Source: Streptomyces sp. WZ.A104 (GTDB lineage Bacteria; Actinomycetota; Actinomycetes; Streptomycetales; Streptomycetaceae). From it: DNA of 64,000 nt. The first letter of the stretch is position 1, and each line of letters opens with the position of its first letter. The notes beneath the pieces were generated by a model that searched no databases, was not told the DNA's origin, and worked only from the letters and a program-made list of their open reading frames with translations. Location of the stretch: NCBI RefSeq assembly GCF_002382885.1, contig NZ_NWVL01000014.1:1-64000 (forward strand). The letters run 5' to 3'. Shown in pieces: positions 5,847-38,458 of this stretch. A program made the translations under genes and the position numbers.

Positions 5847-6103
5847 CGGCCCCGCGAAGGGCGAGGCTGTGCCCCTCATCGGCGCCAGCGCCTCGCCCGG
5901 CCCGGATCGCCCCGTCACGCCGTCCAGCACGCACGCTCGCGGCGTCGGCCGAACGCCCTGGTAGCTCCGCTACGAGAGCCTTCGGCCGCCTTGCGATCGC
6001 ACGCACTGGACGACGCTCCTTTTGGGGCGATCCGCGCCGGGCGAGGCGCTAGCCTGGAGCGTCAGTCTTCAGTCAGCCAGCAAGTGAGGGGCGACAGCAT
6101 CCC

Positions 6104-6889
6104 GTGCGCATCGCCAGGTTCTCCATCGACGGCAATGTCGCCTTCGGCGCCGTCGAGGGACAGGGCACCGTGGAATCCGGTGACCTCGTCCTCGACATCA
6201 TCAAGGGCATTCCGTACGCCGACTTCGAGCTCTCGGGCACCAAGGTCCCGCTGAACAAGGTCCGTCTGCTGCCCCCCGTGCTCCCCAACAAGGTCGTGGC
6301 CATCGGCCGCAACTACGCGGAGCACGCCGCCGAGCTCGGCCACGAGGTCCCCGAGGCGCCGATCACCTTCTTCAAGCCCACCACCTCGGTGATCGGCTCC
6401 GGCGACGCGATCGAGTACCCCTCCTTCTCCAGCGAGCTGCACCACGAGGCCGAGCTGGCCGTGGTCATCGGGCGTATGTGCCGCGAGGTCCCCCGCGAGC
6501 GCGTCAAGGACGTCGTCTTCGGCTACACCTGCGCCAACGACGTCACCGCCCGCGACGTGCAGAAGCGCGAGAAGCAGTGGGCCCGCGCGAAGGGCTTCGA
6601 CACCTCCTGCCCGCTGGGCCCCTGGGTGGAGACCGACGCGGACCCCCACGACCTCACCATCCAGGCGACGGTCAACGGCGAGCAGCGACAGCTCGGCCGC
6701 ACGAGCGACATGGTCCGCTCCGTCGAGGACCTGATCGTCCACATCACGGAGGCCATGACACTCCTCCCGGGCGACGTGATCCTCACCGGGACCCCCGCAG
6801 GGGTCGGCCCCCTGCACGTCGGCGACGAGGTCGCCGTCACCATCGAAGGCATCGGCACTCTCACCAACAAGGTGATCAAGCGTGGCTAA
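6104..6889 (+). CDS. Fumarylacetoacetate hydrolase family protein
   Basis: FAH-superfamily enzyme of 261 aa, about the usual length of the FAHD1/acylpyruvase-type members. Family features are the [13 protein letters not shown] segment, the metal-binding acidic pair in [23 protein letters not shown], and the [16 protein letters not shown] loop. Such enzymes hydrolyse or decarboxylate beta-diketo acids or oxaloacetate; the substrate cannot be read from sequence. GTG 6104 lies about 12 bases after GAGGGG. The gene overlaps the start of gltX by 8 bases, indicating one transcript. This FAH-gltX pairing is common in Streptomyces. Confidence 0.92.
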
Positions 6890-8357
6890 CGCACCAGTCC
6901 GTGTACGTTTCTGTCCCTCCCCGACCGGCAACCCCCACGTGGGCCTGGTCCGCACGGCGCTGTTCAACTGGGCCTTCGCCCGGCACCACCAGGGCACCCT
7001 GGTCTTCCGGATCGAGGACACCGACGCGGCGCGCGACTCCGAGGAGTCCTACCAGCAGCTGCTCGACTCGATGCGCTGGCTGGGCCTGGACTGGGACGAG
7101 GGCCCCGAGATCGGCGGCCCGCACGCCCCCTACCGCCAGTCGCAGCGGATGGACCTGTACAAGGACGTCGCCGAGAAGCTGCTCGCCGCCGGGTACGCCT
7201 ACGCCTGCTACTGCACCACCGAGGAGCTGGACACCCGCCGCGACGCCGCCCGCGCCGCGGGCAAGCCGTCCGGTTACGACGGCCACTGCCGCGACCTCAC
7301 CGCCGAGCAGACCGCCGCGTACGAGGCCGAGGGCCGCAGCTCGATCGTCCGCTTCCGGATGCCCGACGAGGCCATCACCTTCACCGACCTGGTCCGCGGC
7401 GAGATCACCGTCCAGCCGGAGAACGTCCCGGACTACGGCATCGTCCGCGCCAACGGGGCCCCGCTCTACACGCTGGTCAACCCGGTCGACGACGCGCTGA
7501 TGGAGATCACCCACGTCCTGCGCGGCGAGGACCTGCTCTCCTCCACCCCGCGCCAGATCGCCCTGTACCGGGCGCTCATCGAGCTGGGCATCGCCAAGGA
7601 CACCCCCGCCTTCGGCCACCTGCCGTACGTCATGGGCGAGGGCAACAAGAAGCTCTCCAAGCGTGACCCGCAGGCCTCCCTCAACCTGTACCGCGAGCGC
7701 GGCTTCCTCCCCGAGGGCCTGCTGAACTACCTCTCGCTGCTCGGCTGGTCGATCGCAGAGGACCGCGACATCTTCTCGGTGGACGAGCTGATCGCCGCGT
7801 TCGACATCAAGGACGTCAACGCCAACCCGGCCCGCTTCGACCTCAAGAAGTGCGAGCACATCAACGCCGAGCACATCCGCATGCTGGATGTGAAGACCTT
7901 CACCGAGGCCTGCGGCCCCTGGCTGAAGGCCCCCTTCGCGCCCTGGGCCCCGGAGGCCTTCGACGCGGAGAAGTGGACGCGGATCGCCCCCTACGCCCAG
8001 ACCCGGGTCACGGTGCTCTCCGACATCACCGACAACGTCGACTTCCTCTTCCTGGACGAGCCGGTCGACGACGAGGCCTCCTGGGCCAAGGCGATGAAGG
8101 GCGACCCGGCCGCGCTCCTGACCACGGCCCGCGCCAACCTGGAGGCGGCCGACTGGGGTGACCCGGAGTCGCTGAAGAACGCCGTCCTCACCGCCGGTGA
8201 GGCCCACGGCCTCAAGCTCGGCAAGGCCCAGGCCCCGGTCCGCGTCGCCGTCACCGGCCGCACCGTCGGCCTGCCGCTCTTCGAGTCCCTGGAGATCCTG
8301 GGCCGCGAGAAGAGCCTGGCCCGGGTGGACGCCGCCCTGGCCAAGCTGGCCGCGTAA
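6882..8357 (+). CDS. gltX: Glutamyl-tRNA synthetase
   Basis: Class I aminoacyl-tRNA synthetase of 491 aa that attaches glutamate to tRNA. The HIGH-type motif is in [10 protein letters not shown] (residues 12-21) and the KMSKS-type motif is KKLSKRD (about 256-262). The C-terminal half is the anticodon-binding helical bundle. Actinobacteria generally lack GlnRS, so this enzyme is expected to be non-discriminating and also make Glu-tRNA(Gln), which GatCAB then amidates (family knowledge). The GTG start at 6882 lies inside the FAH gene. A strong hairpin follows the stop codon. Genes for both of its tRNA substrates lie about 900 bases downstream. Confidence 0.97.
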
Positions 8358-14598: not shown

Positions 14599-15267
14599 GT
14601 GAACAAGGCGCAGCTCGTAGAAGCGATTGCCGACAAGGTCGGCGGCCGTCAGCAGGCCGCAGACGCCGTCGACGCGGTACTCGACGCGATCGTCCGTGCC
14701 GTTGTCGCCGGGGACCGTGTCTCGGTCACCGGCTTCGGCTCGTTCGAGAAGGTCGACCGCCCCGCCCGGTACGCCCGCAACCCGCAGACGGGTGAGCGCG
14801 TCCGGGTCAAGAAGACCTCGGTGCCCCGCTTCCGCGCGGGCCAGGGGTTCAAGGACCTGGTGAGCGGCTCCAAGAAGCTCCCCAAGAACGACGTGGCCGT
14901 CAAGAAGGCCCCCAAGGGCAGCCTCTCGGGCGGATCTTCCGCCGCCCGTACGACGGTGAAGGCCGCCGCCGCCAAGAAGTCGGCCGCCAAGAAGGCCACG
15001 GCGAAGAAGACGACCGCCAAGAAGGCGACCCCGGCGAAGAAGACCACCGCCGCCGCCAAGAAGGCCACCGCGAAGAAGACCACGGCCAAGAAGACCACCG
15101 CGGCCGCGAAGAAGGCGACCCCGGCGAAGAAGGCCGCGACGACCGCCAAGAAGGCCTCTCCCAGCAAGACCGCGCCCGCCAAGAAGACCACGGCGAAGAA
15201 GGCGCCCGCGAAGAAGACCACGGCGCGCAAGACCACGGCCAAGAAGGCCACTGCACGCAAGAAGTGA
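14599..15267 (+). CDS. hupS: Nucleoid protein HupS (HU fused to histone H1-like tail)
   Basis: 222-aa HU-family DNA-binding protein. Residues 1-90 are a complete HU fold (MNKAQLVEAIADKVGG; RYARNPQTGERVRV arm). Residues about 100-222 form a lysine/alanine-rich tail built of AAKK/TAKK-type repeats resembling eukaryotic histone H1. The S. coelicolor orthologue is developmentally regulated and compacts spore nucleoids (established). GTG 14599 follows GAAGGGGA. It is monocistronic, with its own promoter and a terminator at 15300. The tail is encoded by near-repetitive DNA (about 14960-15260), prone to length change. Confidence 0.95.
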   Translation: MNKAQLVEAIADKVGGRQQAADAVDAVLDAIVRAVVAGDRVSVTGFGSFEKVDRPARYARNPQTGERVRVKKTSVPRFRAGQGFKDLVSGSKKLPKNDVAVKKAPKGSLSGGSSAARTTVKAAAAKKSAAKKATAKKTTAKKATPAKKTTAAAKKATAKKTTAKKTTAAAKKATPAKKAATTAKKASPSKTAPAKKTTAKKAPAKKTTARKTTAKKATARKK

Positions 15268-34451: not shown

Positions 34452-34571
34452 CCGCGGTGGCCCTCACGGGGGCCGGTCGGGTCGGCAACGGCTCAGTAGC
34501 CTCTGAACACCTCTGATTCGTCCTGCGTCACGGTAGAGCGATGTGCCGCGCAGGACCGTAGCAAGATTCAC

Positions 34572-34597
34572 AGGGACGCTTCGGCGTCCCTTTTTCT
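34572..34597 (+). terminator. Intrinsic terminator with UUCG loop and U-tract
   Basis: Stem AGGGACGC/GCGTCCCT closed by a TTCG tetraloop (34580-34583) and followed by TTTTTCTTT. This is a textbook intrinsic terminator, uncommon in form for Streptomyces. Ends the coiled-coil ORF transcript before smc. Confidence 0.92.
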
Positions 34598-34711
34598 TTG
34601 CCGGATCCCCTCCGCCCGACCCCGCCCCGGGCGTACCGGCCTTCGCTTACCGTCTGATGTGCCCTGCACCTTCATCAGTGAAACCGAGAGGGAAAGGTAG
34701 AGTCCGGCGGC

Positions 34712-37700
34712 GTGCACCTCAAGGCCCTGACCCTGCGTGGTTTCAAATCGTTCGCGTCCGCCACCACCCTGCGGTTCGAACCGGGGATCACCTGCGTCGT
34801 CGGTCCCAATGGATCGGGAAAGTCCAATGTGGTGGACGCGCTCTCCTGGGTCATGGGGGAACAGGGAGCCAAATCCCTGCGCGGCGGCAAGATGGAAGAC
34901 GTGATCTTCGCCGGGACCACCGGGCGGCCCCCGCTCGGCCGCGCCGAGGTATCGCTGACCATCGACAATTCCGACGGCGCATTGCCCATCGAGTACGCCG
35001 AAGTGACGATCACTCGGATCATGTTCCGCAATGGCGGCAGCGAATACCAGATCAACGGCGACACCTGCCGACTGCTGGACATCCAGGAACTCCTCTCCGA
35101 CTCCGGCATCGGCCGCGAGATGCACGTCATCGTCGGTCAGGGCCAGTTGGACTCCGTCCTGCACGCCGACCCGATGGGCCGCCGGGCCTTCATCGAGGAG
35201 GCCGCGGGCGTCCTCAAGCACCGCAAGCGGAAAGAGAAGGCACTGCGGAAGCTGGACGCGATGGGCGCCAACCTGGCCCGCGTCCAGGACCTCACCGACG
35301 AACTGCGCCGCCAGCTCAAGCCGCTCGGCCGCCAGGCCGCCGTCGCCCGCCGCGCCGCCGTCATCCAGGCCGACCTGCGCGACGCCCGGCTCCGGCTCCT
35401 CGCGGACGACCTGGTGACCCTGCGGGACGCGCTGCGCGACGAGATCGCCGACGAGGCCGAGCTGAAGAAGCGGAAGGACGCGGCGGAGGCCGAACTGAAA
35501 GCGGCGCTCGACCGCGAGGCGGAGCTGGAGGGCGAAGTGCGCCGGCTCGCCCCCCGGCTCCAGCGCGCCCAGCAGACCTGGTACGAGCTCTCGCAGCTGG
35601 CCGAGCGGGTACGCGGCACGATCTCGCTGGCCGACGCCCGGGTCCGCAGCGCCACCCAGGCCCCCACCGAGGAACGCCGGGGCCGTGACCCCGAGGACCT
35701 GGAGCGCGAGGCCGCCCGCATCCGCGAGCAGGAGGCGGAGCTGACGGCGGCCCTGGAGGCGGCCGAACACGCGCTGGAGGACACCGTCGGCCACCGCGCC
35801 GACCTGGAACGCGAACTGGCCGCCGAGGAGCGCCGCCTCAAGGACGCGGCCCGCGCCATCGCCGACCGCCGCGAGGGGCTCGCCCGGTTGAACGGCCAGG
35901 TCAACGCGGCCCGCAGCCGGGCCGGTTCGGCGCAGGCGGAGATCGACCGCCTGGCCGCATCCCGAGACGAGGCCATGGAACGGGCACGAGCCGCCCAGCA
36001 GGAGTACGAACAGCTCAAGGCCGAGGTCGACGGCCTGGACGCGGACGACGAGGAGCTCGCCGCCCGCCACGAGGCCGCCAAGAAGGCCCTGGCCGAGGCC
36101 CAGTCCGCCCACAGCGCCGCCCGCGAGGACGCCACCGCCGCCGAGCGCCGGCGGGCGGCGGTCGCGGCCCGGCACGAGGCACTGGCCCTGGGCCTGCGCC
36201 GCAAGGACGGTACGGGGGCGCTGCTCGGGGCCCGGGACCGGCTGACCGGCCTCCTCGGCCCGGCCGCCGAACTGCTGACCGTCTCGCCCGGCTACGAGAT
36301 CCCGGTCGCCGCAGCCCTCGGCGCGGCGGCGGACGCGGTGGCGGTCACGGGCCCGGCCACGGCCGCCGAGGCGATCAGGCTCCTGCGCGAACGGGACGCG
36401 GGGCGCGCGGCGATGCTCCTGGGGGACGGGGACGGGGACGGGGACGGGGACGGGGACGGGGACGGGGGCGTCGCGGAAGCCGGGGCCGGGCACGTACCGG
36501 GGCAGTCCGGTCCCCCGGGCGCCGAGCCCTCGCACGTACCCGGTGCCGCCCACCGGGCCCCGCTGCCCGCGCAGAGCGGTGCGCCGGGTTGCGGGGGAGG
36601 CCGTACGGAGACCGGGGGCAGCGCTCCAAGCCGTACCGGAAGCGTCGCCGCCCCCACCGCCCCCGCCGTCGCCGACCTGGTCTCCGGCCCCGTCGCCCTG
36701 GTGAACGCCGTGCGCCGCCTCGCACGGGACACCGTCGTCGTCGCCACCCTGGAGGACGCCGAAGCTCTTGTCGCCGCGCACCCCGGGCTGACCGCGGTGA
36801 CCGGTGAAGGGGACGTGCTCTCCGCCCACTTCGCGCACGGTGGTTCCGCCGGGGCGCCCAGCCTCCTGGAGGTGCAGGCCTCCGTGGACGAGGCCGCCGC
36901 CGAGCTGGCCGACCTCGCCGTGCGCTGCGAGGAACTGGCCGAGGCTCAGCGGCTGGCGGGGGAGCGGCGCAAGGAGTCGGCCGCGCTCGTCGAGGAGCTG
37001 GGGGAGCGCCGCCGGACGGCCGAGCGGGAGAAGTCCGGGGTCGCCCAGCAGCTCGGGCGGCTCGCCGGGCAGGCCCGGGGCGCGGCGGGCGAGGCCGAGC
37101 GGATGACCGCGTCCGCGGCCCGCGCCCAGGAGGCCCTGGAGCGGGCGACCGAGGAGGCCGAGGAGCTGGCCGAACGGCTGCTGGCCGCCGAGGAGGCCCC
37201 GGTGGAGGAGGAGCCCGACACCTCCGTACGGGACCGGCTCGCCGCCGACGGGGCCAACGCCCGCCAGACCGAGATGGAGGCCCGGCTCCAGGCCCGTACG
37301 CACGAGGAGCGGGTCAAGGCGCTGGCCGGGCGCGCCGACTCGCTGGACCGGGCCGCCCGCGCCGAGCGGGAGGCCCGCGCCCGCGCCGAGCAGCGCCGGG
37401 CACGCCTGAGGCACGAGGCGGCCGTGGCCTCCGCCGTGGCCTCGGGCGCCCGTCAGCTGCTGGCCCACGTCGAGGTGTCCCTCGTAAGGGCCGACCAGGA
37501 ACGCACGTCGGCCGAGGCGGCGAAGGGCGAGCGGGAGCGCGAGCTGGCCGCCGAGCGCGACCGGGGCCGGGGGCTGAAGGGCGAGCTGGACAAGCTCACC
37601 GACTCGGTCCACCGGGGCGAGGTGCTGGGCGCGGAGAAGCGGCTGCGCATCGAGCAGTTGGAGATGAAGGCCCTGGAGGAGCTGGGCGTCGAACCGGCGG

Positions 37701-38458
37701 GGCTGGTCACCGAGTACGGCCCGGACCAGCCCGTGCCGCCGTCGCCCGCGGCCGAGGGCGAGGAGCTGCCGGAGGACCCGGAGCACCCGCGCAACCTGCC
37801 GAAGCCGTATCTCCGGGTCGAGCAGGAGAAGCGGCTGCGGGCGGCCGAACGGGCGTACCAGCGACTCGGGAAGGTGAATCCGCTCGCCCTGGAGGAGTTC
37901 TCGGCACTGGAGGAACGGCACAAGTTCCTCTCCGAGCAGCTCGAAGACCTGAAGAAGACCCGGGCCGATCTGCTCCAGGTGATCAAGGAGGTCGACGAGC
38001 GGGTGGAGCAGGTGTTCACCGAGGCGTACCGGGACACGGCCCGTGAGTTCGAGGGGGTCTTCGCCAGGCTCTTCCCCGGCGGTGAGGGGCGGCTCGTCCT
38101 GACCGACCCGGACAACATGCTGGCCACCGGTGTGGACGTCGAGGCGCGCCCGCCGGGCAAGAAGGTGAAGCGGCTCTCGCTGCTGTCCGGCGGTGAGCGG
38201 TCCCTGACGGCCGTGGCGCTGCTGGTCTCGATCTTCAAGGCCCGGCCCAGCCCGTTCTATGTGATGGACGAGGTCGAGGCGGCGCTCGACGACACCAACC
38301 TCCAGCGGCTGATCCGGATCATGGAGGAGCTCCAGGAGAGTTCCCAGCTGATCGTGATCACGCACCAGAAGCGGACGATGGAGGTCGCCGACGCGCTCTA
38401 CGGCGTGTCCATGCAGGGCGACGGGGTCTCGAAGGTCATCAGCCAGCGGCTGCGCTGA
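34712..38458 (+). CDS. smc: Chromosome segregation protein SMC
   Basis: 1248-aa SMC ATPase, core of the condensin complex with ScpA/ScpB. Walker A GPNGSGKSN (about 32-40); long coiled coils; hinge about 500-720; C-terminal signature LSGGERSLTAVAL (about 1158) and Walker B YVMDEVEAALDDTN. The hinge is split after RDAGRAAMLL by a low-complexity insert of about 80 residues (about 569-652) starting with seven Gly-Asp repeats, resuming at VADLVSGPVALVNAVRR. This makes the protein longer than the ~1190 aa usual in the genus. GTG 34712 starts immediately before the conserved HLKALTLRGFKSFA. Confidence 0.97.
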   Translation: MHLKALTLRGFKSFASATTLRFEPGITCVVGPNGSGKSNVVDALSWVMGEQGAKSLRGGKMEDVIFAGTTGRPPLGRAEVSLTIDNSDGALPIEYAEVTITRIMFRNGGSEYQINGDTCRLLDIQELLSDSGIGREMHVIVGQGQLDSVLHADPMGRRAFIEEAAGVLKHRKRKEKALRKLDAMGANLARVQDLTDELRRQLKPLGRQAAVARRAAVIQADLRDARLRLLADDLVTLRDALRDEIADEAELKKRKDAAEAELKAALDREAELEGEVRRLAPRLQRAQQTWYELSQLAERVRGTISLADARVRSATQAPTEERRGRDPEDLEREAARIREQEAELTAALEAAEHALEDTVGHRADLERELAAEERRLKDAARAIADRREGLARLNGQVNAARSRAGSAQAEIDRLAASRDEAMERARAAQQEYEQLKAEVDGLDADDEELAARHEAAKKALAEAQSAHSAAREDATAAERRRAAVAARHEALALGLRRKDGTGALLGARDRLTGLLGPAAELLTVSPGYEIPVAAALGAAADAVAVTGPATAAEAIRLLRERDAGRAAMLLGDGDGDGDGDGDGDGGVAEAGAGHVPGQSGPPGAEPSHVPGAAHRAPLPAQSGAPGCGGGRTETGGSAPSRTGSVAAPTAPAVADLVSGPVALVNAVRRLARDTVVVATLEDAEALVAAHPGLTAVTGEGDVLSAHFAHGGSAGAPSLLEVQASVDEAAAELADLAVRCEELAEAQRLAGERRKESAALVEELGERRRTAEREKSGVAQQLGRLAGQARGAAGEAERMTASAARAQEALERATEEAEELAERLLAAEEAPVEEEPDTSVRDRLAADGANARQTEMEARLQARTHEERVKALAGRADSLDRAARAEREARARAEQRRARLRHEAAVASAVASGARQLLAHVEVSLVRADQERTSAEAAKGERERELAAERDRGRGLKGELDKLTDSVHRGEVLGAEKRLRIEQLEMKALEELGVEPAGLVTEYGPDQPVPPSPAAEGEELPEDPEHPRNLPKPYLRVEQEKRLRAAERAYQRLGKVNPLALEEFSALEERHKFLSEQLEDLKKTRADLLQVIKEVDERVEQVFTEAYRDTAREFEGVFARLFPGGEGRLVLTDPDNMLATGVDVEARPPGKKVKRLSLLSGGERSLTAVALLVSIFKARPSPFYVMDEVEAALDDTNLQRLIRIMEELQESSQLIVITHQKRTMEVADALYGVSMQGDGVSKVISQRLR
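36422..36463 (+). repeat. Seven-unit GGGGAC hexanucleotide repeat in smc hinge
   Basis: Seven perfect tandem copies of GGGGAC in frame within smc, coding (Gly-Asp)7. It can change length by slippage in steps of two residues without breaking the frame. Confidence 0.9.

Follow-up and report, generated by a model that had tools for sequence, protein, structure and literature searches.

A hypervariable, predicted disordered linker in the hinge of Streptomyces Smc

The hinge of Smc in Streptomyces, the dimerisation domain of this bacterial condensin, carries a hypervariable linker between its two lobes that is predicted to be disordered. The linker is real and mostly explained: it varies from 16 to 350 aa across 121 distinct sequences, evolves far faster than the rest of Smc and is rich in repeats, and the predicted hinge core around it is intact. 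In the sequences compared, an insert at the hinge loop is a genus-wide habit, and in the window (the whole 64,000-nucleotide stretch of Streptomyces sp. WZ.A104 DNA that was analysed) only an array encoding Gly-Asp repeats is species-specific. The linker is probably a permissive disordered surface loop that grows by slippage and local duplication, with selection acting on nothing more than its reading frame, disorder and solubility. One thing resists a purely neutral reading, namely short words that recur in the inserts.

The hinge of Smc and its linker

The smc gene occupies 34712..38458 on the forward strand (1248 aa, GTG start, stop included) in the list of open reading frames. Its product scores 909 bits over the whole length of TIGR02168 (SMC_prok_B), where the cut-off for a bacterial Smc is 567, and the translation contains the Walker A (GPNGSGKSN), signature (LSGGE) and Walker B (DEVEAALDD) motifs. 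The organism's 8.1 Mb genome gives one match to the Smc hinge, so that smc is single copy. Antisense to nearly all of smc lies a 1265-aa open frame (34568-38365, reverse strand); long antisense open frames are commonplace in high-GC DNA and are no evidence of a gene.

Pfam SMC_hinge (PF06470) matches the protein in two stretches (E 1.4e-15), the best of which covers residues 512-571 and ends where the insert starts. The first hinge lobe, residues about 512-570, is encoded at 36245..36421 (+) and ends in GRAAMLL; phmmer aligns it to the known hinges 5h69, 3nwc, 4rsj and 1gxj. The second lobe starts with VADLVSG, is intact and lies at 36668..36898 (+), where phmmer finds a weak second domain. 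Extraction between the lobe anchors leaves a low-complexity linker of 82 aa, residues 571-652, at 36422..36667 (+). An earlier note, made from the letters of the window, had described an insert of about 80 residues between the hinge halves, in open frame at 36419-36672 and opening with (Gly-Asp)7 from GGGGAC repeats. All of this is borne out: the coordinates were correct to within one or two codons, smc runs through the insert without a stop or frameshift, and the opening repeat is (GGGGAC)7.7.

The note had also proposed predicting the structure of the hinge. With 60 aligned hinges as input, AlphaFold2 returns a confident core (pLDDT 93-97, with the first lobe above 90 and the second at 95-97) around an insert at 36-66. 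Foldseek matches the model to the SMC hinges 5h69, 1gxl and 6wg6 with E down to 5.6e-12, and these top matches, together with the two Pfam stretches, assign the domain to the two-lobe hinge fold. The core thus comes out intact and the insert is predicted to be disordered, low pLDDT being a sign of disorder and not proof; presumably the hinge still folds and dimerises around it. The possibility that longer inserts contain a folded domain was rejected, as the model of the 154-aa insert of S. coffeae is likewise of low confidence and gives it no support.

Known Smc hinges of the same family (Geobacillus 5h69, T. maritima 1gxl, P. furiosus 3nwc) share the two-lobe fold and have a lobe-joining loop at the equivalent place. 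The difference lies in what fills it: by phmmer alignment, the gap between the anchors is 16-29 residues in the known hinge chains versus 81-85 here, and the aligned chains have no comparable low-complexity segment.

Variation of the loop across the genus

The hinge interval was cut from the Smc genes of relatives between the same lobe anchors, giving 121 distinct sequences, 120 from Streptomyces and one from Kitasatospora. A first, unselected set supplied 81 of them (80 Streptomyces and the Kitasatospora); a second set of 40 genomes, most of them chosen because their inserts are long, is left out of the frequencies. The top of the length range, 350 aa, comes from this second set. In the unselected set the loop spans 16-335 aa with a median of 36, and 37 of the 81 sequences (about 45%) have a loop of at least 40 aa. 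The loop is typically much shorter in the 66 Smc genes taken from other Actinobacteria, where its median length is 21 aa and all but two are below 40 aa, the exceptions being Nonomuraea deserti (73) and Arthrobacter sp. U41 (57). On a tree of the 121 sequences built without the inserts, the long or short state, cut at 40 aa, has changed at least 26 times; the tree of the first 80-odd sequences gives at least 15 changes.

The outgroup loops are mostly 19-25 aa long and commonly end in a WPxLPxGAR[WY]-like motif. The Smc of the window has neither that length nor the motif, and most Streptomyces loops are also without it; pieces of it survive in places, for example VPGARW in S. pini (L048) and LPAGHRY in S. 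albus (L095). The earlier note had taken the insert to be odd for the species and had suggested aligning Smc proteins at the hinge across the genus. The alignment shows no uniform length or sequence, and the suspected oddity survives in part: it holds for the Gly-Asp array but not for the expanded loop, which almost half of the unselected sequences share.

The inserts change quickly even between close relatives. In 12 close pairs the Smc flanks have dN of 0.006-0.035 and dS of 0.12-0.38, whereas dN in the inserts is 0.09-0.50 and exceeds that of the flanks about 3-fold to about 35-fold; in most of these pairs the replacement-site rate of the insert is roughly 5-35 times that of the rest of Smc. 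The ratio dN/dS is about 0.14-1.08 (median about 0.4) in the inserts, whose alignments are short and gappy, versus 0.04-0.12 in the flanks. Length shifts on the same scale: S. albiflavescens (L033) and L112 (genome G040) are 98.8% identical in their Smc flanks, but the insert is 123 aa long in the first and 168 aa in the second, and the inserts of the close pair L002 and L012 measure 87 and 124 aa.

Tandem repeats (TRF score at least 40) were found in 21 of the 37 long inserts of at least 40 aa, versus 7 of 37 stretches of equal length from the same smc genes and 8 of 37 codon-shuffled inserts. In 20 of those 21 the repeat period is divisible by three. Other hinge loops have short-unit runs of their own, (CACCGG)6 in BV286 and Gly-Ser runs in G095. 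By composition the inserts are rich in Gly (20%), Ala (22%) and Pro (15%) and poor in Lys (0.1%) and in the bulky hydrophobics FWYILM (3.8%), and over 3561 insert codons frame 1 has no stop while frames 2 and 3 have 11 and 50. Composition, repeats, fast evolution and the lack of a predicted fold all suggest that the insert is an intrinsically disordered low-complexity linker.

Some observations were made in passing. In the single-contig Streptomyces genome G012, smc is interrupted within the hinge insert, and its N-terminal and C-terminal halves are found on opposite strands, separated by about 2.56 Mb (contig C1; L174 at about 6028-7782, +, and L173 at about 6104-7939, -). Each half abuts unrelated genes, an HtpX-like gene in the case of the C-terminal one. 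The split reflects a genuine inversion through smc or else an assembly error. Two further smc frames are broken: in L176 (G039) the frame changes a little ahead of the insert, between residues about 530 and 554, and in L175 (G010) there is no similarity between residues 404 and 592; both are possibly sequencing errors in GC-rich DNA. The window also encodes, at 14599-15267, an HU-like protein, HupS-like on reading, whose long Lys-rich tail carries AKK/TTAKK repeats (tandem array 14958-15264); it is the second case in this DNA of a nucleoid protein with a disordered tail made of repeats.

The Gly-Asp array and the recurring words

The microsatellite that opens the linker, at 36422..36467 (+), is 46 bp of GGGGAC units with 100% matches in TRF. 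In the 8.1 Mb genome, the one other site with a four-copy GGGGAC run (at most one mismatch) is an imperfect one on contig C158; with no run comparable to it, the array is beyond chance. The sister sequences L002, L012, L090, L281, L284 and L005 have no Gly-Asp run, so that the run is recent. It is best read as a recent, species-specific slippage product showing ordinary microsatellite behaviour, and slippage in two-residue steps within the species is plausible. It has been supposed that the array can change length in whole codons only, and with a 6-bp unit this is right.

Two further readings of the array have to be set against this one. It could act as a switch or tuning knob, with slippage or an mRNA G-quadruplex varying hinge properties or translation among siblings. 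The hexamer is perfect over its 7.7 copies and includes the only strong four-run G-quadruplex motifs in the window; a G4 scan and RNAfold with quadruplexes allowed indicate that the G-rich run could form two tandem quadruplexes in the mRNA, at a predicted folding energy of -97 kcal/mol with quadruplexes versus -41 without. A unit of this size, however, cannot shift the frame, and the sisters manage without the array. Runs of at least five copies occur only sporadically across the genus (in 10 of 101 Streptomyces genomes, and outside the smc matches in all nine other than this one), and G-quadruplex motifs on the coding strand cover no more of the inserts than of other smc DNA, 0.9% in both sets, all of which makes a switch very unlikely. 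The least credible reading is an artefact of sequencing or assembly. The genome is a draft of 188 contigs and GC-rich repeats are error-prone, but the array is in frame, a copy-number error in assembly is unlikely because the array is shorter than the usual sequencing read, and comparable inserts occur in independent Streptomyces assemblies, single-contig genomes included. As a separate observation, G-quadruplex motifs on the template strand cover 3.2% of the 37 inserts of at least 40 aa versus 0.1% of matched smc coding DNA.

The words that recur in the inserts are a different matter. The window has two copies of [VL]P[GA]Q, VPGQ (within HVPGQ) at 36494..36505 and LPAQ at 36563..36574, both on the forward strand. 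Across the inserts the pattern occurs 34 times in 4,606 aa, and it is absent from the 92,464 aa of remaining Smc. Low-complexity background was defined by applying the same filter to the inserts and to 800 kb of unrelated DNA from four Streptomyces genomes. After filtering there are 33 occurrences in 3,344 aa of inserts versus 7 in 20,062 aa of background segments, or 9.9 versus 0.35 per 1000 aa (28-fold); over all 121 inserts the enrichment is 15-fold. VPGQ is found in six tree groups where 0.17 are expected, a ratio that exceeds that of every word in 500 shuffles. The pattern falls mostly within one large clade, which includes S. anulatus, S. atroolivaceus and S. virginiae; VPG[TAP]R is characteristic of another clade and GAGN of a third, and [VLI]PG[TAP]R and GAGN are also far commoner in inserts than in other low-complexity segments. 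GAGN occurs in 18 of the 121 inserts, and a longer clade-specific segment resembling RGAGN[CG]A[TS]SH(D/N)EPADA is seen in many short and medium loops (L034, L039, L035, L126, L006, L010, L271 and others), in some of them duplicated.

Two other sources for these words were tried and set aside. A dispersed DNA repeat was rejected for VPGQ: GTWCCSGGGCAGG is only slightly above its reversed control in 31 genomes, and CACGTACCSGGNCAG is found once in the organism's own genome. Codon-pair bias explains only part of the GTA in the motif, which accounts for 52% of motif Val codons versus 19% in the V-P pairs of the flanks. The enrichment of motif Val and Gly codons for GTA and GGG is a hint of shared descent.

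The linker might be a functional disordered tether whose repeated clade-specific words dock a partner at the hinge, for example a topoisomerase, a nucleoid protein or a sporulation factor. The enrichment over low-complexity background, the absence of the pattern elsewhere in Smc, its spread over six tree groups and the rejection of a dispersed repeat all speak for it. So does retention: the residues of [VL]P[GA]Q are kept at 0.48-1.00 versus 0.21-0.49 for their neighbours, about twice as well, although the alignment may favour the motif. Enrichment and better retention together suggest that part of the insert may be selected. Against this, the words are clade-specific, are missing in many species, short-loop ones among them, and are decaying in places (HVPGA in the window, VPEQ in S. 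anulatus); the motif was chosen after the data had been inspected, and common descent with local duplication, at which the codon enrichment hints, could explain the recurrence. More simply, the words could be what is left of the ancestral loop end after duplication, changing from LPxGAR to VPGAR and onward. Docking by a tether is thus an unlikely reading, if one worth keeping in mind, and doubt is slightly greater still over its fuller form, a fast-evolving disordered antenna whose clade-specific docking words ([VL]PGQ, VPG[TAP]R, GAGN) recruit a partner to the Streptomyces Smc hinge. Because the words were noticed before they were tested, and are decaying in places, they are treated as a lead.

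A permissive loop and its meaning

The permissive-loop reading, which we favour, would work as follows. Streptomyces has mostly lost the conserved WPxLPxGAR[WY]-like end of the actinobacterial loop, which would leave the short loop that joins lobe I to lobe II free to vary in length and to be replaced by a disordered linker. We infer that replication slippage of GC-rich microsatellites, with local tandem duplication, lengthens and shortens it, the length itself being presumably neutral. Selection would retain the frame, the solubility and the disorder, seen in a sequence rich in Gly, Ala and Pro with almost no Lys or bulky hydrophobics, and little of the sequence itself. The cost of changing the linker may be reduced by the dispensability of Smc in S. 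coelicolor, where Smc is not required for viability and smc parB double mutants are viable (PMC4255302).

Engineered hinges also accept extra sequence in their loops. B. subtilis Smc is viable with 14-aa peptides inserted into its hinge loops, tolerates hinge swaps and even accepts a Rad50 zinc hook in place of its hinge (PMC5344682), and the hinge loops of cohesin accept FKBP12 and FRB, or SpyTag/SpyCatcher (PMC9467508). These are laboratory constructs, whereas the Streptomyces insert is natural, predicted to be disordered and variable in length, from 16 to 350 aa. Prokaryotic low-complexity regions (PMC6821194) and microsatellite-driven disordered linkers have in common with it a biased composition, repeats and fast change of length; the Streptomyces insert differs in lying inside the dimerisation domain of a condensin and in its clade-specific recurring words. 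The MukB hinge binds topoisomerase IV (PMC4255302), which would be a parallel, as a platform for partners, only if the motif reading is right; MukB belongs to a distinct SMC subfamily, and a partner for the Streptomyces words is hypothetical. The literature searched, which covered few subscription journals, yielded no earlier description of a hypervariable hinge linker.

The cohesin hinge is a proposed DNA gate, and a gate role for other SMC hinges is stated to be open (PMC9467508). A single genus offers a natural series of loops of 16-350 residues, predicted to be disordered, which constrains any model in which the loop between the lobes has to be tightly packed, and its variants can be used to test what a hinge must do. 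The scale of this variation across the genus, together with the recurring words, is the part that deserves follow-up. If the words are docking sites, a condensin would be gaining partners through a fast-evolving loop; if the antenna reading were true, the genus would have repeatedly rewired its condensin by slippage in a single loop.
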